This document shows, piece by piece, positions 2,427 through 23,170 of a DNA stretch of 23,170 nt. This DNA comes from a virus. The stretch lies in the IMG/VR virus record IMGVR_UViG_3300018410_000052, positions 1 through 23,170 of that record, one strand, 5' to 3'. The translations under genes were made by a program, and so were the position numbers. Each line of letters begins with the position of its first letter. Within the stretch, counting starts at the first letter, position 1. Below the pieces are notes generated by a model that was not told the origin of the DNA, searched no databases, and worked only from the letters and a program-made list of their open reading frames with translations.

Positions 2427-2435
2427 TTATATACA
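2427..2435 (+). promoter_or_regulatory. Candidate phage promoter motif TTATATACA
   Basis: TTATATACA begins 24 bases before the ATG at 2451, in one of the longer intergenic gaps. The same nonamer sits 24 bases before the ATG at 11811, also intergenic. Both sites also have CATATTTAT close by (2438-2446 and 11782-11790). This may be a diverged late -10-type element used with the phage sigma factor. The evidence is two sites only, in AT-rich DNA. Confidence 0.35.
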
Positions 2436-2450
2436 AACATATTTATTACT

Positions 2451-2924
2451 ATGGATACAAAGAAACTAATTAAAGCGATTCAACTTATCATTAAGGAAGA
2501 AGTGAAGAAGGAAGTGGCTAAACGTGAAAAGTCCCTTCGTGAATCTATCCTTAAAGAGATGAAACAATCACAACCAAAAGTTGTTGAAAGAGACCCGCTT
2601 GATGTAGACCACATCTTTGAGACTTCCCATACAAATAACCAATCGTTTACTGGTAATTCTATGTTGAACGATATGTTAAATGAAACCGCTCAAGGTGGTG
2701 AGTGGAGAAGTATTAATGGGCCTGGTGGTGTATTTAATGCATCTCAAGCACAAGGTTGGGGTGGTGGATTAAACACACAACAATCAACATTCCAAACAGC
2801 AGAAGGTGGTCAAGTATCAGCACAACAACTTCAACAAACTGAAGCTGGTAAAGCAGTTGTAAACGCAGTTACACGAGATTATTCTCAACTAATGAAAGCG
2901 ATTGATAAGAAGAAGGGTAAATAA
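2451..2924 (+). CDS. Gln/Gly-rich hypothetical virion-associated protein
   Basis: The product has 157 residues. Residues 1-45 are highly charged and helical (repeated Lys/Glu), probably a coiled coil. The middle (about 60-135) is rich in Gln, Asn, Gly and Ser and looks flexible, with no hydrophobic core. The C-terminus returns to a helix (RDYSQLMKAIDKKKGK). No clear Shine-Dalgarno precedes the ATG, unlike most structural genes here, but a TTATATACA motif lies just upstream. The stop overlaps the gp25-like start as TAATG. It sits between the spike gene and the gp25-like gene, so a baseplate or assembly role is plausible, but I do not recognise the family. Confidence 0.75.
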   Translation: MDTKKLIKAIQLIIKEEVKKEVAKREKSLRESILKEMKQSQPKVVERDPLDVDHIFETSHTNNQSFTGNSMLNDMLNETAQGGEWRSINGPGGVFNASQAQGWGGGLNTQQSTFQTAEGGQVSAQQLQQTEAGKAVVNAVTRDYSQLMKAIDKKKGK

Positions 2925-3358
2925 TGCCAACTCGTAAAGAATATAAGATAAACCCATTAGACCTTAAACGGAATAAGGCAATTGGAGTTCAACTACCACT
3001 GGGTGGTGAGCCTTTATTTAAGTTATCTTATACTACCGAAGAGCAGGCAATATCAAACCTAAAAAACTTATTATTAACTCGTAAAGGTGAACGACCATTT
3101 CAACCATTATTTGGTTCTGATATATATTCATTACTATTTGAACAAATATCTGAAAATATAAACAACGAGTTGGAAGATTCATTAAGAAATGATATTAAAT
3201 TTTGGTTACCCTATATAATTGTAGATGATGTAAATGTAGATTCTAAAGAAGACTTGAATAGAGTAGATATATCACTTAGAGTTAGAGTAACTGAAACTGG
3301 AGCAAATACACAAATAACAATATTCGTAACTGAACAAGGTAACGTATCTATTGTCTGA
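2924..3358 (+). CDS. 25: Baseplate wedge protein, GPW/gp25 family
   Basis: The 144-residue product has the hallmark of the GPW/gp25 family: a helix with AISNLKNLLLTRKGERPFQP (about 42-61), then LFGSDIYSLLFE. The R-K-G-E-R-P-F-x-P-x-x-G signature lies at 53-64. The C-terminal half gives beta strands ending in a short hydrophobic strand. T4 gp25 (132 residues) is a core wedge subunit that contacts gp6 and helps nucleate sheath assembly on the baseplate, acting in the virion. An AAGGGT ribosome-binding site precedes the ATG. The gp6-like gene follows nine bases after the stop, which is the usual order of this pair. Confidence 0.93.
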   Translation: MPTRKEYKINPLDLKRNKAIGVQLPLGGEPLFKLSYTTEEQAISNLKNLLLTRKGERPFQPLFGSDIYSLLFEQISENINNELEDSLRNDIKFWLPYIIVDDVNVDSKEDLNRVDISLRVRVTETGANTQITIFVTEQGNVSIV

Positions 3359-3367
3359 GGATAAAAA

Positions 3368-5281: not shown

Positions 5282-5291
5282 GAGGTAGAAA

Positions 5292-7367
5292 ATGATTTAT
5301 AGAATATATCCAACTAAAGACACAACCCTATACGAAGACACATCTCGTAAAACTCAGAATGTGGGTAAGGATGAGATTCTCGAAATCGGTAAGTTTTACG
5401 ACACCGACAATACCTCTTTATTGGGTAATAGTAGAGCACTTGTTGAGTTTGATTTATCATCAATTTCATCCTCAATCGTAAGTGGTGATATAACATCACC
5501 TCAATACAGATTACGAATGGAGAATGTTGAAAGTCGTGAGATACAATCATCATATGACTTATATGTATTCCCAATCAAGGAATCGTGGACCGAAGGTATG
5601 GGTTCTGAATCGGATACACCACATAACATATTAGATTCATCTTGGGTTAGTAGGAGTCTTGATTCAATATGGGATACTGTAAATTCAACAGTTGATAAAC
5701 CAATTTCTGCAGAACGTATTCCATCTTTAGAAGTATACTATAACTTTGCTGCAAATGTTGGTGGGTTTGAGTTGGTAGAACCTATTAAAGGTACTTCTGG
5801 CGAATCACCCACTCTTCAAATTAGTGATGGTAAGATGATATTATCATCATCGAATTATGGTGGTGGTACTGCAAACTTATCAGCATCATTATCATCGGAT
5901 GAAATATATACAATCTCCTTTGATTTTAATAAAAACACATTATCAGGAGTTGATTTCAGAGTATATAAGCCGGATGGTTCATATTTAGATAATAGTGAAC
6001 TTACAAATTATACTGATACTCTGATAACAGCCGGAACATACGAAATGTCATTCACAGCAAGTGAGTCGGGAATATATAAAACTCAATTTACTTTCTTTGA
6101 TAATAATGGTTCTGATGGTTCTGCTGGCTCCATTGATAATTTCTATATATATTCTCAGGTAGACGGTGATGTATTAATATTTGACCAATTTAATATAGAT
6201 GGGCCCGCTCCATCGACATATTTTCTTAATCAACATATTAAGGATGTTAATTTAGGATTACAAACAATATCCGTTTCTGATTTTGGATTACAAATGTCAG
6301 CATCGGATTTTAGTGGTGCTACAATAAACCGACCATATTCATTACAAGAGAATGTATCATATACTGCTAGTTTTAATATTGATATTGGTAATCTACCAAC
6401 TGAATATGCAGATGGGTCGCCACTTGGTATCGAATTTACTATACAAGAGCCAGATGGTCGTTTATTAGATTCCTCTGAGATTATTGATTACGAAGCAAAC
6501 ATAACATCATCAAAATCTTCTGAAGTTAGGTTTACATCGAGGCAGGATGGTGAATATATATTCCGATGGTCCTTCTTTGGTAGTGGTAGTGGTGAGTATA
6601 GCGCATCACTTGATAATTTCAAACTACAATCAAGCGATGTTGACACAACGGGTTCGTTATACAATGATATTTACTATGACGCACATTGGATTACAAATGA
6701 GGGTGGTGGTACTTGGTATACTTCATCATTCCATAGTGGGTCACATTACAAACAATCGTTTGATAAGTACACTTCTAACTTAGATGTTGAGGTAACTGAC
6801 TATGTTGATGAGTGGTTGGATGGTACACGTTCTAATAATGGTTTAATTATAAAGAAATCAAAAGCAGATGAACAATCAACTAAGAAGTTTGGTTCAATCA
6901 AATTCTTCTCTTCAGATACTAATACAATCTACCCACCAGTTCTTGAAGTTCGTTGGGATGACACTGCATTTGAAACTGGGTCATTAGAAGCACTTAATAC
7001 CAATGATATGATTGTGTATGTTAAGAATCTATCGACTGAATATAAAGAAACTTCTAAAACAAAGATTCGAGTTTATGGTAGAGAGAGATTCCCAGCAAGA
7101 ACATTCTCTTCAACATCAAACTACACATTGGTAAAATACCTACCAACTACCTCGTATTACTCGGTAGTTGATGCTGAAACGGAACAAGTAATTATTCCGT
7201 TCGATACTAATTATACTAAGGTAGGTTGTGATTCTGAAGGTAACTATTTTAACTTTTGGTTCAATGGGTTACAGCCTGAGAGATTCTATAAGTTTGTATT
7301 TAGAGTTGACCAAAATGGAACAACTAAATACTTTGATGATAACTTCTACTTTAAGGTGGTTAGATAA
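5292..7367 (+). CDS. DNRLRE-like tail/baseplate protein with two inserted tandem beta-domains
   Basis: The product has 691 residues. The N-terminus (about 1-100) has the DNRLRE-type beta-sandwich pattern: YPTKDTTLYE, QNVGKDEILEIGKF, then SRALVEFDLSSI and a Trp-containing ESWTEGMG at about 97-104. The fold appears to resume at about 455-557 with GGGTWYTSS, VEVTDYVDEWLDG and PPVLEVRWDD. Between them lie two related units at about 159-288 and 297-447, each with a DG(S/R)xLD(N/S)SE turn and a closing DNF strand. The C-terminal ~130 residues form another beta-rich domain. The position after gp6 corresponds to large wedge/peripheral proteins. A surface or glycan-contact role is an inference from the domain types. 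AGAGGT precedes the start, and the stop overlaps the next ATG as TAATG. Confidence 0.7.
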   Translation: MIYRIYPTKDTTLYEDTSRKTQNVGKDEILEIGKFYDTDNTSLLGNSRALVEFDLSSISSSIVSGDITSPQYRLRMENVESREIQSSYDLYVFPIKESWTEGMGSESDTPHNILDSSWVSRSLDSIWDTVNSTVDKPISAERIPSLEVYYNFAANVGGFELVEPIKGTSGESPTLQISDGKMILSSSNYGGGTANLSASLSSDEIYTISFDFNKNTLSGVDFRVYKPDGSYLDNSELTNYTDTLITAGTYEMSFTASESGIYKTQFTFFDNNGSDGSAGSIDNFYIYSQVDGDVLIFDQFNIDGPAPSTYFLNQHIKDVNLGLQTISVSDFGLQMSASDFSGATINRPYSLQENVSYTASFNIDIGNLPTEYADGSPLGIEFTIQEPDGRLLDSSEIIDYEANITSSKSSEVRFTSRQDGEYIFRWSFFGSGSGEYSASLDNFKLQSSDVDTTGSLYNDIYYDAHWITNEGGGTWYTSSFHSGSHYKQSFDKYTSNLDVEVTDYVDEWLDGTRSNNGLIIKKSKADEQSTKKFGSIKFFSSDTNTIYPPVLEVRWDDTAFETGSLEALNTNDMIVYVKNLSTEYKETSKTKIRVYGRERFPARTFSSTSNYTLVKYLPTTSYYSVVDAETEQVIIPFDTNYTKVGCDSEGNYFNFWFNGLQPERFYKFVFRVDQNGTTKYFDDNFYFKVVR
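5766..6155 (+). repeat. Protein-level tandem repeat unit 1 (inserted beta-domain)
   Basis: This codes for residues about 159-288 of the DNRLRE-like protein. Shared landmarks with unit 2 are SDGKMILSSS, YTISFDF, VYKPDGSYLDNSE, SGIYKTQFTFF and SIDNFYIYS, in the same order and similar spacing. The layout resembles carbohydrate-binding-type jelly rolls, but no family is assigned. Confidence 0.65.
6180..6632 (+). repeat. Protein-level tandem repeat unit 2 (inserted beta-domain)
   Basis: This codes for residues about 297-447. It carries the counterparts of unit 1: SDFGLQMSAS, YTASFNI, IQEPDGRLLDSSE, DGEYIFRWSFF and SLDNFKLQS. The units are clearly related at protein level but well diverged, so the duplication is old or the domains were acquired separately. 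Confidence 0.65.
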
Positions 7368-7672
7368 TGGCAGAAAGAGAAATCAAAAGAAACAGTAGAG
7401 GTCAGATTGTATCATATGAAATATATGGTGCTTTAGACTCATCCATACCATCTGATTCATATGGTAAAGCTAGCTTCGATAAAAAAATTAGTGGTAATCG
7501 TTTTGCTACGATGGTTACTAAATATGATGCTGACTCATTTGATAGTTACATTGACACTACTATTTCTGATGAATTGATATCAACGGATAAGGAAGTGTCC
7601 GCTTCACCTCTATTGGGATTTATCGCAGATATCCAAATAGCATCTGGTCCTCAAGACCCATCTGGTAATTAA
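7367..7672 (+). CDS. Small hypothetical tail-region protein
   Basis: The product has 101 residues with no membrane segment or recognisable motif. The N-terminus is basic (MAEREIKRNSRGQIVSYEIYG); the rest is Asp/Ser-rich with scattered hydrophobic residues, ending in a Pro/Gly tail. Translation is coupled to the upstream gene through TAATG, with AAGGTGG as ribosome-binding site. It lies between two large tail proteins, so a small baseplate connector or chaperone is possible. No family is recognised. Confidence 0.75.
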   Translation: MAEREIKRNSRGQIVSYEIYGALDSSIPSDSYGKASFDKKISGNRFATMVTKYDADSFDSYIDTTISDELISTDKEVSASPLLGFIADIQIASGPQDPSGN

Positions 7673-7684
7673 TAAAGGTAGATT

Positions 7685-10600
7685 ATGTCATTTGATAGGT
7701 TCGTAAATAAAGATGTCGTTAGTGGATTCACACCCGTATTTGGTAAAACCATTGATGATTCTAACATAATAAAAAAAGAACAACCCCTTACAGATGGTGA
7801 TGTTACTGGTAAGTTTGATACAAACCTCGGACTTGAGTTTACACCTAATAAGGAAGTACATATCTACGCGGATTCCAATCTTATAAAATCATCGTATGGA
7901 AATTTTATAGATAATGAAAAGAAAAACTCATTACCAATTGTATACACCACTCCTGAATTAGACCTAAGAAAAAATGGTATAGAGCAGGGTGCTTATTCCA
8001 TATTATACAACTTCCATCATAATATAATATCTAATCTAAAGATATTAAATATATCAGCAGACCGTACTGAGATTAAATTAACATATGCAGGTGGTGGTAG
8101 GACTATTGGGGCTCTACCAACACTCCGTGAAGCGTTTCAAGATTTTGGAATAAACTCATTTGACACCGCTGGTAATAAAAAGGAGTTTGTACTAAACTTC
8201 AAAGAAAATAATATATACGATGTATTAAATATGAGATTTGAAGGGCCACGTGCTGGTCTTGTTAATACAGCACTACCATATCCAAGTGAGCAAACACTTT
8301 CAAATGGTAGTCTTAAAACATTGTGGTATGTTCCATTTGACAATACACTTGAAGCTATCGGAACCTGGCGTACTATGATTCAAATTGAAGAAAATGGTGA
8401 TTTAACTGGTAATTTCAAAAAGTATAGATTAGTACGAGGTTCGGATGGATTACTCGAATGGCAGGGTGGTAATTTATTGACCAGAGTACCAACTGAGTTG
8501 GATAAAGCTGAACCATTGTTACAAGATGCATTAGACAATGGTAATACTGTCACAGTTGGTAATAACCCAACTAATAAGGTATTACGATATGATAGATTTG
8601 ATAATAGTTTTACATCAATCGAGAGTGTCATTGTAAAATTAGATAGACCTCTTGATGAATCTATTGTGATTAACAACCTATGTGATGTGGATGCTCGTAT
8701 TATGAAGTCTTGGGTTGAGAAAATCATCGCATTCCCAAGTATTCAAAACCAAGATAGACCAGACTTTTCAGAACCAGACTTCTCTATGGATATGTCGGAT
8801 ATGAAAGGGGCAGATGGTGTAGATTGGCAGAATTGGAATTCACTATTAGATACCGATGCAACCACATCTCAAAGACTCATCAATAAATACTTTAGTGGTT
8901 CATTAGGAAACGTGAAGTTAAATATAGATTATTCTGATTTTTCAAAATTCGTACACTTCTCATCCGCTACAGAACGAATTGATAATTTCAAGTACAAGTT
9001 ACAACAAATAGAAGCATATAACTCACGAATTAATTTACTCGAATCTATAAGTGGGTCTGAAGCTTTAACAAACATATCTCAGTCACTAACCCGTAGAGAC
9101 ACTCTTATTGGTGGATTTGATGATTTTGAGAATTACTTATACTACAACGATAATTCAAACCCATATACACATTGGTCTGGGTCTTCTAATATAATAGAAC
9201 CATATCCAAAAGTATCAACATTCCCACATATATTATACGATGTGACATCATCACAAGGTGAGGCTTGGTACAATGGTGTTTATGCGTCTGCATCTTTATA
9301 CGATTCGTTTAATGACGCAAGACTCCGTAATATGATTCCAATCCATCTTCAAGAGGATGAGAGAAATTTGGAATACATTACGTTTGTTGATATGATTGGC
9401 CAACACTTTGACATACAATGGACATACATTAAATCTTTGACCGATATCAACAAACGTGAAGAACACCCACACGATGGTATGGCAGATGACCTTTTGAAGT
9501 CGGTTGCTGAATCATTGGGTTGGAAGTTATCTAACGGATACTCTGATGTTTCTCTTTGGAAATATGCGTTGGGTGTTGAGTCTGACGGTACGTTATATCA
9601 AACAGGCTCGCTACAATCTAAATCGAGAGATGAGATTACAAAAGAAACTTGGAGAAGGATTGTAAATACAATTCCTATGCTGTATAAAACAAAGGGGTCT
9701 GCTCGTTCAATCAAAGCAATCCTTGCAACATATGGTATTCCACAAGCATTCTTGAAGATTCGTGAGTGGGGTGGGCCTACAATTTCTACTCGTAAGAATG
9801 TTTACGAGCACGAGAGATTTGTATATAAATTACAGGCATCTCCATCAAAGTATATCTCAAATCCGTGGGATGATATTCAGTCCGATAGACCAAATTCGAT
9901 TGAGGTTATTGGTAAGATGCCTAAAGGGAACTATCACATACTAAGAGTAACCAATAACTCCGACAACATAGATTATTTTTGGGACTATCAAGATAATGAG
10001 ACTGTAAGAATCAGACTATCGGTAAATGGTACTGACATTATATCTTCATCTTATGTTCCATACAAAGAACGTAAAGAAGTTGCAATGGTGTTAACCTCGG
10101 CTAGTATTGATATTCAAGCTGCTTGGGTAGATTCTTGGGGAGAGGTATTAGCTAATCCAACTGCAAGTTTTAGTGGTAATAATTCTACATTTGATAGTGT
10201 GTGGTCTTCGAATGGTGTTGTACAAGTGCCAGGTCCAACAACTGACCTCAACGTAAACTCATATGAAACTGCAAGTATTCAAGAGGTTAGATATTTCCGT
10301 GACCCAATTACAAACGAGATAACTCAAGAACACGCACGAAATAGAGAGGCGTATTTTAGTGATGATAATACAACCGATTTGGATATAGACACTTCATTTG
10401 ATAAGTTGATGTATCGTATATTTCCAGATAGTGACTTCACCACAAACTCATCATCAATTTTATCGGTTCACCCAAATCAAAAATTCACTTCATCTGATAG
10501 TGGGTTAGTGTTATCAGCATCATTAGTTAATATGAAACCTTTGGATTTGGTAGGTGAGGTAGACACTCAATTTGTAACAGTACCATCTATGGGGGCTCTT

Positions 10601-11764
10601 AATTTAATGAATAACAAAGTTCGTATAGAGTCAGCATCACTAAATGGTGTATTAAGTCCTGATAAATCAAACGAGTTATCACAATACGATTATGCCCCAG
10701 TCGACTCAAATCTATTGGGTACATACTTCACAACAACCGATACTGTAAACTTTGATATCTACAACTCGGAAGGTTACTTCGAAGCAGATGATTGGGTGGG
10801 TGACCCTGACAAAAGATACAACGAAGATTATCCATTACTAAAGTATAGAGCAAAGAATTACTTCCAAAAGTATACAACTGGTACTGCTTTGGATTTAATT
10901 ATGGATATGTTGTCTCGTTATGATATGTCTGTATTTGACCAAATTAGACAACTCTTACCAGCCCGTGTAGATTGGCATAAGGGTATACTAATTGAACCAC
11001 ACGTTTTTGAAAGAAACAAGTATCAAAGGGAACGTGGTATTGTAATATCAAGACATCATTATGATGGTAGTATTAATGTTGGAGCAAATGTAATTACTGC
11101 AAGTAGACACGATTATGATGTATCATCAATCGATTTGTATGATTACAATTCATCTACATACAAATATCAGATTGCAGTATTAAGTGGTAGCACATACGAA
11201 AATCAAACAAATGGGTATTGGGAATATTCTCCAACTGGGTCTACTGTACTTAATGCAAGGCCATCGAAACATCACCAAGACATCGAGTATTTCTATTCTA
11301 CCGCAGAGTCGGCTAGTTTGAAACTACCAAGCTCTTCATCTTACAAATACGCTGAAGTACAAGACACTCGATTACCATTATCAATAGAAAATTTATATTA
11401 CAATGGTTGTAGAATATCAAGCGACTCATTAACAACAAACTCGGATGATACTCCAGATGGTGGGCCTGTTGTTGAAATAACGGAAGTGAATCCTAACGTA
11501 TTGGTATTCTCTGGTAGAGAGGGTGAATCACTTGGTACTGAGCAAACTATCAAACAAACTTCAGTTAGAACTATGCCTGTGAATGAATTGGTATCAGTTC
11601 GTAAAAGTGAGGAACGTGAAGTCAAACCAACCCCATCAGTTGCACTTGAAACTGATACTTTGAAACCATTAACATTTATTCCACGGAATAGTAAACCAAA
11701 AACTAATATTAGACCAAATCGAACACAAAGTTTATTAAAATCCTTATTAAATCGATTTAGGTAG
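7685..11764 (+). CDS. Large tail/baseplate protein with P2 gpI-like region and concanavalin-like insert
   Basis: The product has 1359 residues. Residues about 590-700 show the P2 gpI-like tail pattern seen in many phages: EDERNLEYITFVDMIGQHFD, then TWRRIVNTIPMLYKTKGSAR (starting at 655) and IKAILATYGIPQAFLKIREW. Residues about 735-890 look like a concanavalin/LamG-type jelly roll inserted after it (VRIRLSVNG, ASIQEVRYFRDPI, then a His/Asn-rich end). Residues about 1077-1125 carry a distinctive MSVFDQIRQLLPARVDWHKG segment that I associate with large tail proteins of environmental T4-like phages. The last ~55 residues are basic and probably extended. Position and size fit a gp7-like wedge component, but I infer this from order, not homology. 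AAAGGT precedes the start. Confidence 0.7.
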   Translation: MSFDRFVNKDVVSGFTPVFGKTIDDSNIIKKEQPLTDGDVTGKFDTNLGLEFTPNKEVHIYADSNLIKSSYGNFIDNEKKNSLPIVYTTPELDLRKNGIEQGAYSILYNFHHNIISNLKILNISADRTEIKLTYAGGGRTIGALPTLREAFQDFGINSFDTAGNKKEFVLNFKENNIYDVLNMRFEGPRAGLVNTALPYPSEQTLSNGSLKTLWYVPFDNTLEAIGTWRTMIQIEENGDLTGNFKKYRLVRGSDGLLEWQGGNLLTRVPTELDKAEPLLQDALDNGNTVTVGNNPTNKVLRYDRFDNSFTSIESVIVKLDRPLDESIVINNLCDVDARIMKSWVEKIIAFPSIQNQDRPDFSEPDFSMDMSDMKGADGVDWQNWNSLLDTDATTSQRLINKYFSGSLGNVKLNIDYSDFSKFVHFSSATERIDNFKYKLQQIEAYNSRINLLESISGSEALTNISQSLTRRDTLIGGFDDFENYLYYNDNSNPYTHWSGSSNIIEPYPKVSTFPHILYDVTSSQGEAWYNGVYASASLYDSFNDARLRNMIPIHLQEDERNLEYITFVDMIGQHFDIQWTYIKSLTDINKREEHPHDGMADDLLKSVAESLGWKLSNGYSDVSLWKYALGVESDGTLYQTGSLQSKSRDEITKETWRRIVNTIPMLYKTKGSARSIKAILATYGIPQAFLKIREWGGPTISTRKNVYEHERFVYKLQASPSKYISNPWDDIQSDRPNSIEVIGKMPKGNYHILRVTNNSDNIDYFWDYQDNETVRIRLSVNGTDIISSSYVPYKERKEVAMVLTSASIDIQAAWVDSWGEVLANPTASFSGNNSTFDSVWSSNGVVQVPGPTTDLNVNSYETASIQEVRYFRDPITNEITQEHARNREAYFSDDNTTDLDIDTSFDKLMYRIFPDSDFTTNSSSILSVHPNQKFTSSDSGLVLSASLVNMKPLDLVGEVDTQFVTVPSMGALNLMNNKVRIESASLNGVLSPDKSNELSQYDYAPVDSNLLGTYFTTTDTVNFDIYNSEGYFEADDWVGDPDKRYNEDYPLLKYRAKNYFQKYTTGTALDLIMDMLSRYDMSVFDQIRQLLPARVDWHKGILIEPHVFERNKYQRERGIVISRHHYDGSINVGANVITASRHDYDVSSIDLYDYNSSTYKYQIAVLSGSTYENQTNGYWEYSPTGSTVLNARPSKHHQDIEYFYSTAESASLKLPSSSSYKYAEVQDTRLPLSIENLYYNGCRISSDSLTTNSDDTPDGGPVVEITEVNPNVLVFSGREGESLGTEQTIKQTSVRTMPVNELVSVRKSEEREVKPTPSVALETDTLKPLTFIPRNSKPKTNIRPNRTQSLLKSLLNRFR

Positions 11765-11786
11765 TTAAAAAGTTAAAAAACCATAT

Positions 11787-11795
11787 TTATATACA
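11787..11795 (+). promoter_or_regulatory. Candidate phage promoter motif TTATATACA
   Basis: TTATATACA begins 24 bases before the ATG at 11811, inside the longest intergenic gap of the window (46 bases). Spacing and sequence match the copy at 2427. A clear AAAGAGG ribosome-binding site follows at 11797-11803, so transcription would start very near it if this were a -10 element. That leaves the placement uncertain. Confidence 0.35.
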
Positions 11796-11810
11796 TAAAG
11801 AGGAAACACT

Positions 11811-12482
11811 ATGGGATTTTTAGATAATTCATCGGTAACAGTAGACGCAATTCTTACCAAGAAGGGTAGGGAGTTGTTAGCACAAGGTCGTGACAAGTTT
11901 CAAATCACTCAATTTGCATTGGCAGATGATGAGGTTGATTATGAACTTTGGAATCCAGCACACTCGTTGGGTTCAGACTATTATGGTATCATCATTGAAA
12001 ATATGCCTGTGATTGAAGCAATCACGGATGAAAACTACGCAATGAAATACAAATTGCTGACACTACCTAAATCAACTACACGATTACCTTATATTTCAGT
12101 ATCACCATCATCGATAACATTAGATGAAGGTGTGAATAATACTGTAATTTCAGTAACCACTAAAAATGGTGGTAATGAAAACTTAGGTTACACTGCAATT
12201 TTGTTGAACAAAGATGCGGGTAATATAACTGGTAATGCTGGAGTTCCTGGTAACGTAACACCTATTATAAGTGTGGGTTCATACAATACCAACCAATCAC
12301 AAACAGTTGTTGGTAAGAACCAATTCACATTCCAATCGGTTGCAAATCTACCAAATGATACTGTAATTTCAACTCGTATCATTATTATTGGTAACGAGAC
12401 TGGTGGTAGAACTGAAATTGATGTAACCGTGAATCCCGTATCAGACTCACAAGTAGTCGTAGTGTCAACCCCAATCGCATAA
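11811..12482 (+). CDS. Virion structural protein with Ig-like C-terminal domain
   Basis: The product has 223 residues in two parts. Residues 1-~95 form a conserved-looking module beginning GFLDNSSVTVDAILTKKGRE, then FQITQFALADDEVDYELW. I associate this opening with structural proteins of environmental T4-like phages, though without a settled name. Residues ~98-215 are an all-beta, Ig-like segment (SVSPSSITLDEG opening, repeated Thr/Val/Asn strands, closing EIDVTVNPVSDS), like the Ig-like domains that decorate phage tails and capsids and may bind surfaces weakly. A good AAAGAGG ribosome-binding site is present. The longest intergenic gap precedes it, so it may begin a transcription unit shared with the two paralogous proteins downstream. 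Confidence 0.72.
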   Translation: MGFLDNSSVTVDAILTKKGRELLAQGRDKFQITQFALADDEVDYELWNPAHSLGSDYYGIIIENMPVIEAITDENYAMKYKLLTLPKSTTRLPYISVSPSSITLDEGVNNTVISVTTKNGGNENLGYTAILLNKDAGNITGNAGVPGNVTPIISVGSYNTNQSQTVVGKNQFTFQSVANLPNDTVISTRIIIIGNETGGRTEIDVTVNPVSDSQVVVVSTPIA

Positions 12483-12499
12483 CGTAAAGGAATAATAAG

Positions 12500-13708
12500 A
12501 TGGCAGTAGAAAGTATAGGTAGTAATGGTGGTACTGGTGGCGGCACCTTTTCAAGTGGAAACACTGGTGGAACAACTGGTGGAACAAGTGCTGGTAACTC
12601 TACAATTTTAGGTGAATTGAGTGGTCCTGCATCACTAAACGATATCGTAGCACAAGATGTTACAAATGATTCAACTCCCGTAATCCCAGCAGGTGCATAT
12701 GATTATGGTAGTGGTAAAGTATATACCGCATTTACTGTCGAAGATATTGTAGAAGGTAATACACAAAGAGTAACTCGTGGGTTATGGAGTGGTAATGTTG
12801 GTGAACTAACTACACTCTGGACGTCATCATATCAGTCTTCAACTCAAAAACAATATTACTACGAGATTTACAATGGAGACCCAACTGACTCTACTAAAGA
12901 AGCTCAGTTCTCAATCGCATATGGTCACTACGCTGGTAGTGGTTCTTCATCAGATGGTTCTAATGAAGATTCACCATCAAACGCAATGTACTCTCAATTC
13001 CAACAAATTCTCCTTCCTGCATCTCAAACAACATTTAACTTTGGTGGTGTAACTCAAGATGATGTTTATGTCGTGTCTCTAAATCGTGCTCGTATCAAAG
13101 ATAAGTTAGACCCAGGTAATTGGGAACTTGTATTATCTGGTTCAAATGGTGAAACACTTCGTTTGATTGATGATAGTGGTGATGTTAACCAATTGGGTAA
13201 CTCGAATCAAAATAAATACAATATTGTATCAGGGTCGTTGACTAATGGTATCCACAATGAAACCGAAATCTTTGGTGAAGTATACCCTCAATTTGGTGTA
13301 ATGGTCTTGGGTGCTGCTGCACTTGACGCATCTGCATCTCTTGGAACAAATAGAGCAAGTGATACCGATGCAAGAAACCACGGATTGTTGTTCACGGCTA
13401 TTAGTGGTGCAGCTGCTGCTAACTCTGATAATGGATTCCAAGCAAGAAGTGAGGAAGAAGTAAAATCAACATTCTTCTTTGTTAGAGCTAAGAACGCAGA
13501 ATACAACTTCTCAAACAACCCATCTTATGTTACAGGTTCAAATGGTAAGTTAAAACAACAAACATTCGTAGGTGACCCTAAGTCATATATTACTACGGTA
13601 GGATTGTACAATAACGATAATGAACTTTTAGCAATTGCTAAGTTGTCTAAACCTTTGTTGAAATCATTCTCAAATGAGATTTTGATTAAGGTTAAGCTTG
13701 ACTTCTAA
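12500..13708 (+). CDS. Virion structural protein, paralogue A (Gly-rich N-terminus)
   Basis: The product has 402 residues. The first ~32 are nearly all Gly, Thr and Ser, a flexible leader. The middle has TAFTVEDIVEG, LWSGNVGELTTLW, and QFSIAYGHYAGSGSSS (about 132-147), which I associate with tail structural proteins of marine myoviruses. The C-terminal ~82 residues (321-402) match the C-terminus of the next gene: EYNFSNNPS, YITTVGLYNNDNELLAIAKL and a terminal VKLDF strand. The segment VYVVSLNRARIKDKLDPGNW (about 188-207) and GEVYPQFGVMVLG (about 259-271) also have counterparts there. AAAGGAA precedes the ATG. The role is probably tail or fibre structure; the exact place in the virion is unknown. 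Confidence 0.7.
   Translation: MAVESIGSNGGTGGGTFSSGNTGGTTGGTSAGNSTILGELSGPASLNDIVAQDVTNDSTPVIPAGAYDYGSGKVYTAFTVEDIVEGNTQRVTRGLWSGNVGELTTLWTSSYQSSTQKQYYYEIYNGDPTDSTKEAQFSIAYGHYAGSGSSSDGSNEDSPSNAMYSQFQQILLPASQTTFNFGGVTQDDVYVVSLNRARIKDKLDPGNWELVLSGSNGETLRLIDDSGDVNQLGNSNQNKYNIVSGSLTNGIHNETEIFGEVYPQFGVMVLGAAALDASASLGTNRASDTDARNHGLLFTAISGAAAANSDNGFQARSEEEVKSTFFFVRAKNAEYNFSNNPSYVTGSNGKLKQQTFVGDPKSYITTVGLYNNDNELLAIAKLSKPLLKSFSNEILIKVKLDF
13460..13705 (+). repeat. Shared C-terminal domain, copy in paralogue A
   Basis: This encodes residues 321-402. It aligns without large gaps to residues 455-540 of the next gene: EYN followed by SNN or SSN, then YIT(T/Q)VGLYN, LLA(I/V)AKL and a final VK(L/F)D strand. 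It may be a shared attachment or trimerisation module. Confidence 0.75.
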
Positions 13709-15344: not shown

Positions 15345-15776
15345 ATGGCAAAAGGAAATTGGAGTCACATCCAAAAACAAAAAGGTCACAAGTCTGGCCT
15401 TGAGACTCGTATAGATGAGCAACTCAAATCACAAGGTATTGATGGTGAATATGAACAACACGAGGTAAAGTATACTATACCCGCTACCCACCATACTTAC
15501 AAGCCAGACTTCAAACTACCAAACGGAATCTACATTGAATCCAAAGGTTGGTTCTTACCTGAAGATAGAAAGAAGCATTTATTAATTAAGGAACAAAATC
15601 CCGATATGGATTTACGATTTGTTCTTCAGTCACCAAATGGTAAAATCTATAAAGGTTCTAAGACCACTTACGCACAATGGTGTGAGAAGTATGGATTCAA
15701 ATGGGCAAAGAAAGAAATACCACAAGAGTGGATTGATGAAAAACCTAAGCAAGATTTTTTTGATTATTCAAAATAA
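15345..15776 (+). CDS. T7 endonuclease I-type Holliday-junction resolvase
   Basis: The product has 143 residues; T7 gp3 has 149. It matches T7 endonuclease I along nearly its whole length: SGLETRIDEQL, IPATHHTYKPDF, LPNGIYIESKG, DRKKHLLIKEQNPDMDLR, KIYKGSKTTYAQWCEKYG and PQEWI. The four catalytic residues of the PD-(D/E)xK fold, Glu20, Asp55, Glu65 and Lys67, are all present at the same numbers as in T7. The enzyme acts as a dimer, cutting four-way junctions and branched DNA so that replicating phage DNA can be packaged. The start lies one base after the upstream stop and no Shine-Dalgarno is evident, so translation may be coupled to the tail gene. T4 uses a different resolvase (endonuclease VII, gp49). 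Confidence 0.96.
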   Translation: MAKGNWSHIQKQKGHKSGLETRIDEQLKSQGIDGEYEQHEVKYTIPATHHTYKPDFKLPNGIYIESKGWFLPEDRKKHLLIKEQNPDMDLRFVLQSPNGKIYKGSKTTYAQWCEKYGFKWAKKEIPQEWIDEKPKQDFFDYSK

Positions 15777-15794: not shown

Positions 15795-16730
15795 ATGGAA
15801 GATAGACTACTTGAACTTTTAGAGTCCGTTCTTGGTAAATCCAAGAAAACCAGTGGGGATAATTATGCATTCTATTCTCCATTTGTTGACCACTACAAAC
15901 CAAAGTTAGAGATTAATATACGAATTAATTCTAAGGGAAACAACCCGTGGCATTGTTGGATTTCTGATGAAAAGGGTAGAACTATAAAAACCCTATTCAA
16001 GAAACTTCGTGTATCCAAATCAACTTGGGATGAGTACAATGCAATCTTTAGCAAGGTTAATCGATATTCAAGTGAGTACGACACTACTGAGGTAGTAGAG
16101 CAAGTTGAACTTCCAAAAGAATTCACACCACTATATAAACCAGCCAACTCTTATAAGAGAAAACACGCACTCAATTATCTATTGGGTAGGGGTCTCAGGC
16201 CAGAAGATATTGTAAAGTATAATATTGGGTTTTGTGAAGAAGGTGAGTATCGGGATAAAATCATTATACCATCGTATGATGAAAGAGGTAAGTTGAATTT
16301 CTTTGTAGGTAGGTCATTCTACCAAACGCAATATAAACACAAAAATCCAAAGGTATCCAAAGACATAGTTGGGTTTGAATTACTCATCAATTGGGATACT
16401 CCATTGGTTCTTTGTGAGGGTGCATTTGATGCAATTGCTATTCGTAGGAATGTAATTCCATTGTTTGGAAAATCTATTCAATCTGAATTAGAGAAGAAAA
16501 TAATTGGAAATTCCGTAAAAAAGTTGTATATTGTATTAGATTCGGATGCTATAAAGAATGCAATCGGATTGGCAAAGAAGTTTATGTCGTATGGAATTCA
16601 GACCCATTTAGTAGATTTGGGAGATGAAGACCCATCCGATATGGGATATGATAAAGTTAACAAACTAATATATAATACTCCACCATTGGACTTACGAAGG
16701 TTGGTAGAGTATGAATTATTCAGAGTATGA
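15795..16730 (+). CDS. DnaG/gp61-like TOPRIM primase with degenerate zinc finger
   Basis: The product has 311 residues. The TOPRIM domain is intact: LVLCEGAFDAIAI with Glu208 and Asp212, VLDSDA with Asp249 and Asp251, then DEDPSD (277-282). The middle (about 120-200) has the DnaG-type helper segment with GLRPEDIVKYNIGF and IIIPSYDERGKLNFFVGR. Residues 24-63 keep the scaffold of the phage primase CHC2 finger (YxFxxPFxxHxKPKLEINI, then WHCW and KGRT). Expected cysteines are replaced by Ser28, Val31 and Ser57; only Cys54 remains. The role would be RNA-primer synthesis for lagging-strand replication. No Shine-Dalgarno is obvious. The gene overlaps the next one as ATGA. It is shorter than full DnaG, like T4 gp61 (342 residues). 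The helicase partner is not in the window. Confidence 0.88.
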   Translation: MEDRLLELLESVLGKSKKTSGDNYAFYSPFVDHYKPKLEINIRINSKGNNPWHCWISDEKGRTIKTLFKKLRVSKSTWDEYNAIFSKVNRYSSEYDTTEVVEQVELPKEFTPLYKPANSYKRKHALNYLLGRGLRPEDIVKYNIGFCEEGEYRDKIIIPSYDERGKLNFFVGRSFYQTQYKHKNPKVSKDIVGFELLINWDTPLVLCEGAFDAIAIRRNVIPLFGKSIQSELEKKIIGNSVKKLYIVLDSDAIKNAIGLAKKFMSYGIQTHLVDLGDEDPSDMGYDKVNKLIYNTPPLDLRRLVEYELFRV

Positions 16731-19700
16731 AAAAACTCAAGAAACTAAAAGTCGGTATTGAAAAGGTAAATAAAGTTTACCATATCGCAGATGTTCACAT
16801 CAGAAACCTCAAAAGACACAAAGAGTATCGTGAGGTATTTTCCCATCTTTATGGGTATATTTTGACTACAATGGAGGAAAATGACATCATCTATATTGCA
16901 GGTGATGTTGTTCACGCAAAGACTGATATGACACCCGAAGTGGTTGACCTCACTCAAGAGTTCTTCACTCGACTTGCTGACTTGTTACCAACGGTAGTTA
17001 TTCCTGGTAATCACGACGCTAACTTAAATAACCCATCGAGATTGGATGCGTTATCACCAATTATTAGTGCACTAAAGCACCCAAATCTATTCTATCTAAA
17101 AGATACTGGTGCTTGGTCATTAGGTGACCTTACAATCGTTCACCAATCGGTTTGGGATAAGTCACCAGGATTTCCATTAGCAAGTGAGTATGGTGGTGAT
17201 ACTAAGATTGGTGTATTTCACGGACCAGTTGATAAAATTGAGACCGAGCATGGATTCTCAATTGAAAATAAGAATATCAATGTAGGGAACTTTGATGGGT
17301 ATGATATGGTGATGTTGGGTGATATCCACAAACCAAATAATCCAGTTCAAGGAGAAGAGCATATTAAGTATCCGGGTTCACTAATCGTTCAGAATCACGG
17401 AGAAGCAAAGTATCCAGACCACGGAATTTTGGTGTGGGATGTTCAAACTCGTAAAAATAAATTCGTGAAGATTCCTAATGATTATGGATATGTCACGATA
17501 GATATAGAAGAGGGTAAGATTGTTTCGAATATGCCAATCCCTCAAAAACCACGAATGAGAGTTCGTGTAAAAGATACAAAGGCATCTGAACTTAATAAGA
17601 TTATTGCTGACCTAAAGAAAGGTCGTAAAGTTCAAGAATTAACCATACAAAAAGTTATCACTCGTAAAGAGGGTGGTGAGCATGAAAAGATTGTTCTTCA
17701 GAATGTTCGTGATACTGCTTTCCAAAATAAACTGATTGAGGAATTCTTAAATGAAACGGAACATCTCACCGAAGAGCAACTTGAAGTTGTTAAAAGCATT
17801 AACAACGATATCAATTCAAAACTCGGAACAGCGAGAACAATTGTCAACTCAACTTGGATACCGAAGGTGTTTGAATTCTCAAATATGTTCTCGTATGGTC
17901 CTAACAATGTCATAGACTTTTCTCAGATGAAAGGTGCTTATGGAATCTTTGCACCAAACGCAAGTGGTAAGTCAACCCTTTGGGATGCTCTATCATTTTG
18001 TATTTTTGATAAATGTTCAAGAACCTCAAAAGCAGAGGATGTGATGAACTACTCAAAGATGTCGTTTGATTGTAAGTTTACATTTGAGTTGAATGGAGTT
18101 GACTACACCATCGAGAGAACTGCTAAGAAGTCGCCTAAGAGAGGAACTGTAAAGGTAGACACTAACTTCTATCGTATGGTAGATGGTCAAGTAGAATCCC
18201 TTAATGGTGAACAACGTAGAGAAACAAATGCAATCATTAGAGAATATGTTGGAACATACGATGACTTCGTGCTCACTGCGATGTCAACACAATCAAACAA
18301 TAGTGGATTCATCGAGAAATCACAAAAAGAACGTAAGGAACTCCTCGCACAATTCTTGGATATGGATGTCTTCGAGAATCTCTACCAAATTGCGAGTGAA
18401 GAGATTAAAGAACTATCAGCTCTTCTAAAGGATTATAAAAACCAAGACTTCCCAACACAACTTGCTGAAGCAGAAGAGACACTTACATCTATCACGGGGT
18501 CTTTGACCTCGCTGCAAGATAGGAAGGTTGAGTTGGAAACCAAACGAGATAATACAAATACTAAGATTGAGTACGAGATGAGCAAACTAAAGCCCGTTGA
18601 AGACTTAGGTGATGTATCAGATTTGGAAGACCAATTGGAGTCTATGGAAGATTCCATTAAAAAGCAACAACTTTCGTGTGATTCTAATTTAACTCATATC
18701 AAGAAAGTTCAAACGGAAATCAAAGACATTCAGACCAAGCTATCAAAATACGACGCTGATAAACTTTATGAGACTGAAAAGGAATACAATCGTTTAGATA
18801 GAAAATTTAATGAGTTAGGTATTACGTTGGATAAAATTGAGACCGAGATGATTCACGCAAAGAAACACTTGGATGGGATTGGGTCTCTTACGTTTGACCC
18901 TAATTGTAATCATTGTGTTGAGAATCAAAATACTCCATTTGCTAAACAGGCAGAAACACTCGAACGTGAGTTAGAATCATTGGGTAAACAATACTCAGAT
19001 GTAGTTTCGGACCGAATGGGGGTGATGGATGCTCGTAATAGTTCAGATGTGAGTTCTAAGATTGAAGAATATGAAGCATTGGTATTGGAATCTAAAGAAG
19101 CGCATCAAGAATTAAAACAATACCAATCCGATTATGATGGGTGTACACTTCTTGTGGAAAAGATGACTCTTGAATTAGAATCTCTCAAAGAGAAAGTTCA
19201 AAGAGCAAAAGCACAAGAGGAGGCAGTAGTCTACAACGGAGAGATTCAAGAAAAGATAAAATCTTTTAGAGTCACACGAGATTCCATTCGAAATGAGATT
19301 GATGAGATTACAACTGAGATTATGAATGTAAACTCCGAAATCAAATTGGCTGAGAATACTATCGAGAGTGTAAATCGTGCTATTGATAAACTTAGTGATA
19401 TGGAAGTTCGATTCGATGGATATGAATACTACCTCAAATGTGTAAAGAGAGATGGTATCCCATATAATCTAATTTCAGATGTTCTACCAAAGTTAGAAGT
19501 TGAGATTAACAACATTCTACAACCACTCGTTGATTTCCAAATTATGTTGAATACTGATGGTAAAAACATCAACTCATACATTGCATATGGAACTGATGAA
19601 TATTGGCCATTAGAACTAACAAGTGGTATGGAGAAATTCATCTCATCAATTGCTATTAGAACTGCGTTGATTAATGTATCTAATCTACCACGACCAAACT

Positions 19701-19894
19701 TCATTGCTATTGATGAAGGGTTCGGTTCATTAGACACGGATAACTTTAATTCTTTATATTTATTATTTGATTACTTAAAGACCCAATTTGACTTTATCAT
19801 TACAATATCTCACATTGATAAGACACGAGATATGGTTGACCAGATAATTGATATCAATAAAGTTCGTGGGTTCTCTAAAGTTTCATATTTATAA
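16727..19894 (+). CDS. Fused Mre11-Rad50 (gp47-gp46 type) recombination nuclease/ATPase
   Basis: This is a single 1055-residue protein. The N-terminal metallophosphoesterase (about 15-250) has the Mre11/SbcD/gp47 motifs: ADVH (Asp22, His24), AGDVVH (Asp60), PGNHD (95-97), FHG (His165) and GDIHKP (199-203). A linker of about 100 residues follows. The Rad50/SbcC/gp46 part begins near 380: P-loop APNASGKST (409-417), long coiled-coil arms, a zinc hook CNHC (Cys727, Cys730), signature LTSGME (964-969), Walker B FIAIDE (992-997), D-loop SLD, and His1029. Such complexes bind DNA ends, resect them and feed recombination-dependent replication. T4 encodes the two parts as genes 47 then 46, the same order as fused here. 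The frame is uninterrupted. The start overlaps the primase stop. Confidence 0.95.
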   Translation: MKKLKKLKVGIEKVNKVYHIADVHIRNLKRHKEYREVFSHLYGYILTTMEENDIIYIAGDVVHAKTDMTPEVVDLTQEFFTRLADLLPTVVIPGNHDANLNNPSRLDALSPIISALKHPNLFYLKDTGAWSLGDLTIVHQSVWDKSPGFPLASEYGGDTKIGVFHGPVDKIETEHGFSIENKNINVGNFDGYDMVMLGDIHKPNNPVQGEEHIKYPGSLIVQNHGEAKYPDHGILVWDVQTRKNKFVKIPNDYGYVTIDIEEGKIVSNMPIPQKPRMRVRVKDTKASELNKIIADLKKGRKVQELTIQKVITRKEGGEHEKIVLQNVRDTAFQNKLIEEFLNETEHLTEEQLEVVKSINNDINSKLGTARTIVNSTWIPKVFEFSNMFSYGPNNVIDFSQMKGAYGIFAPNASGKSTLWDALSFCIFDKCSRTSKAEDVMNYSKMSFDCKFTFELNGVDYTIERTAKKSPKRGTVKVDTNFYRMVDGQVESLNGEQRRETNAIIREYVGTYDDFVLTAMSTQSNNSGFIEKSQKERKELLAQFLDMDVFENLYQIASEEIKELSALLKDYKNQDFPTQLAEAEETLTSITGSLTSLQDRKVELETKRDNTNTKIEYEMSKLKPVEDLGDVSDLEDQLESMEDSIKKQQLSCDSNLTHIKKVQTEIKDIQTKLSKYDADKLYETEKEYNRLDRKFNELGITLDKIETEMIHAKKHLDGIGSLTFDPNCNHCVENQNTPFAKQAETLERELESLGKQYSDVVSDRMGVMDARNSSDVSSKIEEYEALVLESKEAHQELKQYQSDYDGCTLLVEKMTLELESLKEKVQRAKAQEEAVVYNGEIQEKIKSFRVTRDSIRNEIDEITTEIMNVNSEIKLAENTIESVNRAIDKLSDMEVRFDGYEYYLKCVKRDGIPYNLISDVLPKLEVEINNILQPLVDFQIMLNTDGKNINSYIAYGTDEYWPLELTSGMEKFISSIAIRTALINVSNLPRPNFIAIDEGFGSLDTDNFNSLYLLFDYLKTQFDFIITISHIDKTRDMVDQIIDINKVRGFSKVSYL

Positions 19895-19914: not shown

Positions 19915-22900
19915 ATGGGATTGGAATTAAAACGAAGGTCTAAACAATACTTAAAAGATATACCAAATACGATTGACCTCGCCGGTGATGGTGGTAATCG
20001 TGTATTTGGTATATCCGACTTTCCTAAATACCTTGGTGAAGGTAAAAACTCGTTTAGAATAAACCCATTGGTTAGGGCAATAAAACCTAATACCAATATT
20101 GATATTGAGGTTTTAGACTCCAATGGTAACACTGTATATTGGGAAATACCAAATTACAAGGATGGTGACAACTCAAGATTAGTTTCAATATGGGTTTACG
20201 ATACCTTGGATGAAAAATATCATACACCAGATGGTCCTTGTGAGATTATAATAGCTGCCCAAGGCCCAAGTGGTCCAATAAGACACACACTTAGAACTAC
20301 CATTGTAAAGAATAAAAAATCGGTATCTGAAATAGTGTTTTCAGAAAAACCAATTGGTAGTGTTTCATCATCTATACAAACATTTACGAATTTACCTCAA
20401 ACCGATGGCTCATTAACACAAACATCACAATCGGGTCAGTTTGTATATAAGAAATCTATATATGGTGATGATGTATCATTCGAATCATCTACTTCTATAA
20501 TAAATGGTGAAATGTTAAGTGGTAGTTTAGAGTTGGACTTAACATCCACAACTCTATACCCACGACTTGGTGGGGGTCAATCTCAGCCAGTAAATGTTAC
20601 AGCAAGTATAAGTGAAGTGCTAAGTTCTACCTTATTCAGAGTGTCACTTCCGATAACAGCAAGTGACAATAGAAGTCAAGGTTCGATACACACTTATGAA
20701 TATTCCGATGGTAGTATAAATGGTACTATTAGATATCAGTCTACTGGGTCTGCTGTAAATACACAAAACCAAGTAGCAATTGCAAATATATTATTAACTA
20801 ATGTAAATCCAGAGTCTGGACGAATATCATCGGTAAACACGTTAATAAAATCAGATGGATTGTCGGATTCAGATTATGAGTTAATATCAAATACCCAAGT
20901 TCCTAACGAATCTATTATATCATATAGAGTCCCAATTCCAACGGAACACCTCAATGACCCTAAGTCAATTAAGGTACAATTCCTAAATAGTTCAGGAGAT
21001 ATATCATCTACTGAGGTTGTAATTAAAAATATTATATTTGAGGGTGGTAACGTATACATTGGTGGTAATCAATCAATTGTAACTGGGTCGTTATTTATAT
21101 CCAACGCAATTGGTAGTGGTCTTGAGATTGGTGGTCATTCAAGTGGTTTCTTAAAATCAGTTGGGTATGAAGGTTTAACATCAGCGTCCAACGGAGATGG
21201 GCCTGGTGGGTTCATTATTTATAGTGGTAGTGGTGGCCTTCAAATGGGTGCTGATGTATTACAAGGAGTTGGTCTACAATTCGTTGGTGATAATGATGAT
21301 AGACACCTTATCTTTACAACTCACGATGGTGGGTTGTTGGATGTTAAGACTGATAAGTTTTTTATAGGAACACAAAATACCCAATTCGTAAGTGGTAGTG
21401 ATGGTAATATTGAAATCAGTTCATCATTATTCCACTTAGACCCTGCAAACGATAGATTGGTAATTGGTGCGGATGCTATTATAGAAGCAGACCTATCAGC
21501 AAATAATATCAGAACTCCTGCAACCATTGATGGTGCTCCATCAACTGACCTAAATGCATCATCTTCTATTAAGTCGGATGGTTTTGCAAGATTCGTATCT
21601 GCTTCGATTGGTGGATGGGGTGTTGATACTGGTTCAATCTTTAGTGATAATTTAGAGATAAACTCAAGTGGTAAAATTAAAACAAGAGATTACATCTCAA
21701 ATACCAAGGGGTGGGTTATAGATGAGACAGGTATCGCTGAGTTTCAGAATGTAAAGATTAGAGGTACACTTGCTACAACCACATTTGAGAAGGAAAGTGT
21801 TAATGCAGTAGGTGGTCAATTGTATGTTGCAAACTCAACTACATTGAGTGGTTCATATTCATCGAGTATAGATAGTACACCTGCGGCTGGTATAACTTCA
21901 TCAACATCATTACCAACAAACTTTACTACTGCAACAACTCGTAGTTTGGAGTTTGATTCTTCCACATATGATATATCAACAATAGATGGTGTTGATAAAT
22001 TTACAATTGATTCTGCTATTTATGCTGATAACGAATCCGCTACATTGTATTGGAGCCAAAGTAATGCATTTTCATCACAAGCATCAGCAAGTTTTAAGAC
22101 AACCGCCAGTACAACTACAAATACGGATGTATCCGCATCAGTATATAACTCGAATACCTTATATGGGAATGAAATTAGTATAGCACTTGGAAACTACACT
22201 GCTATTCAGCCAAACGGATTCCCACAACAATACTTTTTTAACCAAGAAGTGTATATCTCTGATAGAAATGGTAATAATGTTTTCACAATGGGTGGTTCTT
22301 CAGCCATAGGTACTATAACTTCAGTTAGTCCACTTGAAATAGAATTAGATAGTGATACGATTAGCTCAACTTATAGTGGGTTACCAATCACAGGTAATAG
22401 TGAACAATTCTATATATCATTTACATCACAATCCACATCAACCACAACTGTATATGATGCAAGTCAATATGTACACAAACCAGCTGGGACTTGGCCAACC
22501 AAAATCGAAGATGATGGTATAATAATATTTGATGATGGTAATGGTAGTAAAACATACACTATCCTTGAACGTGTTGATGCTACAACTTTAAGAATTGATA
22601 CATCATCATATGCACCAAATACAAGTGGTTCATTTGTAGTAGCAACTGGGGCATTTAGTGGGTCTGCTAATAGTTCAACTAATATCTCAGCAGGTAGTGG
22701 TAGTTTGAACGAGTTTATATACGATAATATATCCCCATCATCGAGTCAATTTATTGTAGACAATGTAAGTGGGTTTATTGTAGATGAGATTCTAACATTA
22801 AAGAAGGTAACAAGTACTGGATTCTCAACTGAGTATGTTCAAGTTGTATCATCATCGAGATTAAATGGTGGGAGTTCAACCGATTTGAGTGGTATCTTAA

Positions 22901-23170
22901 ATGTAACTCGTGCATATGGTAATGGTATCACAGGTGATTCGGCTTCGTTAGGAGATTCACCTTCTTCTGCGACTGACTACGAACAAGGTCAAGTGGTTGT
23001 ATCTACTGGTAAAATTGGAAGTGGATTTATTAGACTTAACGCAAATCCAAACGACACCTCAACTCCGTATATGGATATTGTAGAGAGAACTGGAAGTGGT
23101 ATATACGATGTTGAGTTGAAAGCACGATTGGGTGACCTAAGTGGTCTTGATGGGACTGATATGGTTCTTG
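19915..23170 (+). CDS. Large tail fibre / receptor-binding protein (3' truncated by window edge)
   Basis: The frame is open without stops from the ATG at 19915 to the right edge, at least 1085 residues. GGAG lies upstream of the start. Residues 1-~150 form an N-terminal beta domain, probably for attachment (MGLELKRRSKQYLKDIPNTI opening). Residues about 380-560 are strand-turn repeats of fibre type (SGLEIGGHSSG, GGLQMGADVLQG, NIEISSSLFHLD). Around 598-640, GWVIDETGIAEFQNVKIRG then TLATTTFEKESVNAVGGQLY is a motif I recognise from phage tail fibres. Near the right edge, VELKARLGDLSGLDG (about 1067-1081) is the 'ARLGDLSG' motif of fibre and host-specificity proteins. The product is expected on the baseplate, binding the host surface. 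Composition is very Ser/Thr/Asn/Gly-rich, like its tail neighbours. Confidence 0.85.
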   Translation, partial: MGLELKRRSKQYLKDIPNTIDLAGDGGNRVFGISDFPKYLGEGKNSFRINPLVRAIKPNTNIDIEVLDSNGNTVYWEIPNYKDGDNSRLVSIWVYDTLDEKYHTPDGPCEIIIAAQGPSGPIRHTLRTTIVKNKKSVSEIVFSEKPIGSVSSSIQTFTNLPQTDGSLTQTSQSGQFVYKKSIYGDDVSFESSTSIINGEMLSGSLELDLTSTTLYPRLGGGQSQPVNVTASISEVLSSTLFRVSLPITASDNRSQGSIHTYEYSDGSINGTIRYQSTGSAVNTQNQVAIANILLTNVNPESGRISSVNTLIKSDGLSDSDYELISNTQVPNESIISYRVPIPTEHLNDPKSIKVQFLNSSGDISSTEVVIKNIIFEGGNVYIGGNQSIVTGSLFISNAIGSGLEIGGHSSGFLKSVGYEGLTSASNGDGPGGFIIYSGSGGLQMGADVLQGVGLQFVGDNDDRHLIFTTHDGGLLDVKTDKFFIGTQNTQFVSGSDGNIEISSSLFHLDPANDRLVIGADAIIEADLSANNIRTPATIDGAPSTDLNASSSIKSDGFARFVSASIGGWGVDTGSIFSDNLEINSSGKIKTRDYISNTKGWVIDETGIAEFQNVKIRGTLATTTFEKESVNAVGGQLYVANSTTLSGSYSSSIDSTPAAGITSSTSLPTNFTTATTRSLEFDSSTYDISTIDGVDKFTIDSAIYADNESATLYWSQSNAFSSQASASFKTTASTTTNTDVSASVYNSNTLYGNEISIALGNYTAIQPNGFPQQYFFNQEVYISDRNGNNVFTMGGSSAIGTITSVSPLEIELDSDTISSTYSGLPITGNSEQFYISFTSQSTSTTTVYDASQYVHKPAGTWPTKIEDDGIIIFDDGNGSKTYTILERVDATTLRIDTSSYAPNTSGSFVVATGAFSGSANSSTNISAGSGSLNEFIYDNISPSSSQFIVDNVSGFIVDEILTLKKVTSTGFSTEYVQVVSSSRLNGGSSTDLSGILNVTRAYGNGITGDSASLGDSPSSATDYEQGQVVVSTGKIGSGFIRLNANPNDTSTPYMDIVERTGSGIYDVELKARLGDLSGLDGTDMVL

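Follow-up and report, generated by a model that had tools for sequence, protein, structure and literature searches.

A conserved single-frame fusion of Mre11- and Rad50-type domains in a large group of aquatic phages

A viral contig from IMG/VR (IMGVR_UViG_3300018410_000052), of which the whole stretch analysed here (positions 1 to 23,170; hereafter the window) is 23,170 nucleotides long, encodes Mre11- and Rad50-type domains in one polypeptide. The ORF, at 16727-19894 on the + strand, begins with ATG, is open throughout and specifies a single protein of 1055 aa that contains both domains, the nuclease first. The fusion is genuine and conserved, with chance and assembly error excluded, and it is shared across a large group of aquatic phages. 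We consider it very likely that the protein is a single-chain Mre11-Rad50 enzyme, corresponding to SbcD-SbcC and to T4 gp47-gp46, from a tailed phage whose replication genes resemble those of T4.

Reading frame and conservation of the fused gene

Both halves of the protein were recognised in similarity searches. The Pfam domains Metallophos and AAA_23 matched residues 16-203 (3.2e-10) and 385-590 (3.6e-15), respectively, PHROG and NCBIfam matches were to SbcC-like and SbcD/SbcC families, and sequence matches in the PDB were to SbcC/Rad50 and SbcD/Mre11. The uninterrupted frame, the two Pfam domains and the fused relatives described below agree with the first-pass annotation, which had read Mre11 and Rad50 as one polypeptide. 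The fused gene is under purifying selection (dN/dS of 0.07-0.15, or about 0.1, relative to close relatives), and 19 motif positions carry the identical residue in all 143 fused proteins compared. As this set was picked for single-frame proteins, it measures conservation and not the frequency of fusion, which comes from counts per locus.

A first scan of viral contigs yielded 80 loci, 67 of which have a complete single fused frame of about 1046-1057 aa. Twelve others run off contig ends and retain a single frame as far as the sequence extends, while one (L081) is broken at about residue 207, away from the junction. Profile-based scanning, together with a search using the protein of a 735-kb phage, contributed at least 90 further loci, all fused in an HMM test; some contigs were shared between the viral-contig scans, so the locus sets overlap. 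When the protein of Tenacibaculum phage PTm1 served as query, it returned only PTm1 itself (L166), which was an exception to the HMM fusion test, yet its 1318-aa frame has both domains. At least 491 relatives were confirmed in the profile scan, and removing near-copies left at least 101 complete proteins, including the window's own. Between residues ~270 and ~400, where a break had been named as evidence against a fusion, all complete relatives in the viral-contig scans read through the junction in-frame; the exceptions are two genes with endonuclease inserts elsewhere. Named or isolated phages with a fused frame include Microcystis phage Mel-JY01 (1066 aa) and, besides PTm1, Tenacibaculum phage pT24 (1310 aa); an uncultured 735-kb phage also has one (1202 aa).

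Two explanations would make the fusion only apparent. In a single metagenomic contig, a lost stop or a frameshift error could join two adjacent genes, but the chance of such an assembly or sequencing artefact is negligible here: the fusion lies at the identical place in around 100 complete, non-redundant relatives, which come from many different assemblies and span roughly 40-100% identity, and it is also present in an isolated phage, Mel-JY01. The fused relatives thus rule out assembly error. Alternatively, the frame could be translated while a separate Rad50 from an internal start, or cleaved products, do the work, leaving functionally two subunits. Met387 is conserved near the junction, and in the window's own clade synonymous variation is reduced across it, at codons 336-425 (window 17732-18001). 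However, this dip is absent from four other clades, none of 28 genes checked has a Shine-Dalgarno-like sequence before Met387, only one of them (L079) has one before any other candidate start, and Met387 lies beyond the first strand of the ATPase lobe. With no conserved ribosome-binding site and no recurrence of the dip, we rejected an internal start for a separate Rad50, and consider two functional subunits very improbable.

In two distant relatives, L081 (6600-7559) and L002 (6600-7604), the fused gene is broken at an identical site directly after motif V, where the residues read GDIHVPNQ and GDIHKRQ, respectively. The inserts, of ~0.9-1 kb, contain differing endonuclease-like ORFs (weak NUMOD3, phrog_5104; TnsA-like), and the 5' fragments of both genes end in similar tails (ESELEEYLKNGW and EDELEKYLNSGW, respectively). 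A catalogued intron was rejected, as neither had an Rfam match; the breaks may reflect splicing or intein-like joining, or the gene may truly be split. Because the gene is interrupted in these two relatives, continuity may not be essential everywhere.

Other candidates lie further afield. The genome of the 735-kb phage (LR756501.1) has, at 670999-672753 on the − strand, a second and stronger SbcC-type match (3.7e-74) that holds one TAG and three TAA codons, perhaps owing to recoding or an insert. Among the fold matches was a 1009-aa 'recombination exonuclease' of Listeria phage LMTA-57 (UniProt A0A068CB47), which may be a fusion of independent origin or the product of a frameshift in sequencing. 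Prevotella Lak-C1 was rejected as an additional fusion, being split into 372 and 558 aa under code 15. A scan of genome contigs with short peptide patterns of the window protein found no close cellular relatives.

Domain anatomy and active-site motifs

An AlphaFold model of the window protein (mean pLDDT 82) gives the order nuclease, capping region, two helices, linker, Rad50 head, long coiled coil with the CNHC motif at its tip, and second half of the head (Table 1). This is the layout described for Mre11/Rad50 fusions, in which capping and helix-loop-helix regions and about 9-12 linker residues separate the two domains (PMC3175470). Foldseek matches in the PDB were headed by chains of Mre11-Rad50-Nbs1, E. 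coli SbcCD, and archaeal Rad50 and Mre11, and other SMC proteins appeared among them.

Table 1. Fused gene, its predicted parts and the two genes upstream (window coordinates).
Feature	Position	Strand	Evidence or remarks
T7-type endonuclease I (Holliday-junction resolvase family)	15345..15776	+	Pfam Phage_endo_I 9e-55
DnaG-like primase	15795..16730	+	phrog_47 2e-33; overlaps start of fused gene
Fused Mre11-Rad50 gene	16727..19894	+	1055 aa; ATG overlaps primase stop (ATGA, 16727-16730)
Mre11/SbcD-type phosphoesterase core, residues 1-260	16727..17506	+	Pfam Metallophos; conservation in 143/143; model
Putative capping-domain region, residues 261-328	17507..17710	+	Strand-helix-strand at 274-310 in model; assigned by position
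Helix-loop-helix, putative Rad50-binding, residues 329-366	17711..17824	+	Model helices 330-344 and 349-366; weak coupling excess
Interdomain linker, residues 367-375 (~9 aa)	17825..17851	+	Model; alignments; no conserved ribosome-binding site near internal starts
Rad50 N-lobe, residues 376-545	17852..18361	+	P-loop N411-A-S-G-K-S416; Q-loop Q522
Coiled coil, residues 546-906	18362..19444	+	Zinc hook C727-N-H-C730
Rad50 C-lobe, residues 907-1055	19445..19891	+	Signature TSGME 965-969; Walker B FIAIDE 992-997; H-loop H1029

The Rad50/SbcC set is complete and invariant, comprising Walker A, Q-loop, signature, Walker B, H-loop and a CXXC zinc hook in the coiled coil, so that the ABC-ATPase motifs and CNHC hook named in the first-pass annotation were all found. 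For the nuclease, that annotation named residues that do lie where it placed them, but it overlooked Asp199 in motif V. Across motifs I-V of the Mre11/SbcD phosphoesterases, the metal-ligand positions are D22, H24, D60, N95, H165, D199 and H201. Six of the seven are canonical; at the seventh, Asp199 replaces a His, giving motif V as G-D199-I-H201 rather than the usual G-H-I-H. The replaced residue is the first His of motif V (P. furiosus His206), and the Asp is invariant in all 143 fused proteins. Judged by its residues, the nuclease site is not fully canonical, and the Asp could alter or weaken catalysis. The fixed change offers a direct way to probe the role of this metal ligand.

The linker bears on how the complex would assemble. 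In the T. maritima complex the C-terminus of Mre11 and the N-terminus of Rad50 are ~28 Å apart, a gap for which 9-12 residues are said to suffice (PMC3175470). The domain order and the ~9-residue linker of the window protein suit this canonical M2R2 arrangement, so no changed assembly is required, contrary to what had initially been proposed. Docking of the helix-loop-helix in cis is nevertheless an extrapolation, because the model's inter-domain placement is not confident (pTM 0.47). Co-variation placed 4 of the top 100 pairs between the helix-loop-helix and the coiled-coil base, against 0.9 expected; with ~51 effective sequences this excess is weak and confounded by phylogeny, and we rejected it as proof of cis docking.

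Genomic neighbourhood and proposed function

The two genes upstream of the fusion are frequent companions. Among 176 collected loci, the primase neighbour is present at 160 and the endonuclease I neighbour at 141. The primase/endonuclease I/fusion module adjoins baseplate and tail genes and lies apart from the replication genes, a placement that counts against the function proposed below. On either side of the module (88-13708 and 19915-23170), the nine ORFs tested had no PHROG match; they include tail-region proteins of 1359 aa and at least 1085 aa, and the ORF starting at 19915 continues beyond the window end. Judged by these ORFs, the structural region of the window phage is poorly covered by known families.

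The window is a partial genome; searches for a second copy and for recombinase genes were made on its relatives. Ten related contigs of 96-187 kb each had one SbcC/Rad50-type match and no second. Beyond the Mre11-type gene, metallophosphoesterase matches in these ten were limited to short separate ORFs (225-236 aa) in G005 and G009. The fusion is probably the relatives' only such enzyme, although failure to find another does not prove this, as their records may be incomplete. A RecA-family gene was found in all six large-contig relatives tested, and a family-B polymerase in eight of eight records. A cyanophage reading based on photosystem genes found no support, as none of the ten records contained photosystem reaction-centre genes.

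The conserved frame, both domains, the invariant motifs, purifying selection, the single Rad50-type match in large contigs of relatives, the neighbouring genes and the recombinase and polymerase genes of the relatives tested are observations; the homodimer, docking in cis, processing of DNA ends and a role in replication are what we infer. Each chain would contribute a nuclease, a capping domain and an ABC head together with half of a zinc hook, with its helix-loop-helix docking on the root of the coiled coil. Two chains would dimerise into the equivalent of M2R2; the heads would engage upon ATP binding, the nucleases would pair and the hooks would join via zinc. Such an enzyme would depend on ATP to process DNA ends as well as abnormal structures, and would pass 3' tails to the phage RecA/UvsX-type recombinase for recombination-dependent replication and repair. 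The primase and the endonuclease-I resolvase would be made from the same gene cluster.

Degradation of host DNA, as the main task in place of replication and repair, is an unlikely alternative role that nonetheless has some basis. The records of T4 genes 46 and 47 note that they are needed for recombination and for host-DNA degradation, and a T7-type endonuclease I adjoins the module; in T7, endonuclease I also helps break down host DNA. The primase neighbour and the RecA-type recombinase in these genomes favour recombination-dependent replication instead, and the two roles are not exclusive. At ~120 kDa, a naturally joined chain with its stoichiometry locked would lend itself as a convenient model for studying the structure and enzymology of Mre11-Rad50.

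Origin of the fusion and comparison with known systems

To place the fused proteins, one tree was built for the ATPase lobes and another for the nuclease domain, each from 26 fused and 7 split phage proteins. All 26 phage fusions fell on one side of a single branch in both (support 98/96 for the ATPase and 91/77 for the nuclease); the split outgroups were sparse and their branches very long. At motif V, most split Mre11s have GHxH, whereas the 24 fused proteins in which the motif was found all have GDIH; the split protein of Vibrio phage VPG01 has GDLH, so the Asp also occurs outside fusions. The results support, but do not prove, a single origin of the fusion among the phages sampled. The fusions might instead have arisen several times, making the Tenacibaculum, 735-kb-phage and window types convergent. 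The branches are deep, the outgroups long, and the fused proteins of a 2011 study were non-monophyletic (PMC3175470); the joint grouping in both trees and the shared motif-V Asp argue against convergence, which we regard as somewhat doubtful. We tentatively suggest, with similar reserve, that a single ancestral fusion could define a large lineage of aquatic phages, for the most part uncultured, with an ancestor common to the giant-virus R555 type, in which case a complete single-chain recombination nuclease with a fixed Asp in motif V would have moved between tailed phages and giant viruses of eukaryotes. Part of this idea was put forward in 2011 for the marine fragments (PMC3175470).

Mre11/Rad50 fusions were documented by Yoshida, Claverie and Ogata (2011) for Mimivirus (R555), for five strains of bacteria, for six eukaryotes and for Bacillus phage 0305phi8-36; the study also covered 249 R555 homologs of marine origin, some of which sit on scaffolds that carry genes for phage primases and T7-type endonucleases (PMC3175470). 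The window fusion is a further example of this protein type and not a new one; the novelty that the first-pass annotation implied is lost, as such fusions are routine in this phage group and their kind was published in 2011 (PMC3175470). Among later papers naming R555 together with Mre11 and Rad50, we identified no further fusion study. R555 and the window protein share their domain order, a helix-loop-helix with a short linker, the Asp in place of P. furiosus His206, and a GDXXD motif that ends in His instead of Asp (GDVVH63 in the window protein) (PMC3175470). They differ in length (1351 and 1055 aa, respectively), and the window protein belongs to a tailed phage. The marine scaffolds and the window have the same primase and T7-type endonuclease neighbours (PMC3175470). 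In a viral fold library, fused 'DNA repair exonucleases' of giant viruses ranked first, followed by Tenacibaculum phage proteins, which is a lead and not a placement in a tree. Because of the residues shared with R555, the scaffold neighbours and this ranking, the window probably derives from a phage of the type that yielded the 2011 fragments. The full-length genes and large contigs back the inference then drawn from short marine sequences, that tailed phages, besides giant viruses, carry many fusions. What remains of interest is how large the phage lineage is, the fixed Asp199, and how these fusions relate to those of giant viruses.

Among named phages, Mel-JY01, on which we found no literature, encodes a fused protein annotated merely as 'AAA domain containing protein' (PP395634.1). 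It is ~40% identical to the window protein over the full length and has a primase-like gene upstream. Unlike the window, Mel-JY01 has a small ORF between the primase and the fused gene, and a GIY-YIG protein gene where the window has endonuclease I.

T4 gp47/gp46 combine the same two activities with the nuclease first, and the window's relatives have a RecA-family recombinase and a family-B polymerase, as T4 does. In T4, however, these are two proteins (339 and 560 aa) instead of one frame, and motif V reads GHFH and not GDIH. The origin first suggested for the fusion, a T4-like 47-46 pair that lost a stop, is too simple, as ORFs 46.1 and 46.2 lie between T4 genes 47 and 46. Acidovorax phage ACP17 and Vibrio phage VPG01 have the pair in different frames, with overlaps of 4 and 11 nt, respectively, so fusion would need a frame change. 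E. coli SbcD and SbcC show detectable similarity to the window protein in sequence and fold, but are separate proteins, and SbcC alone (1048 aa) is about as long as the whole window fusion.
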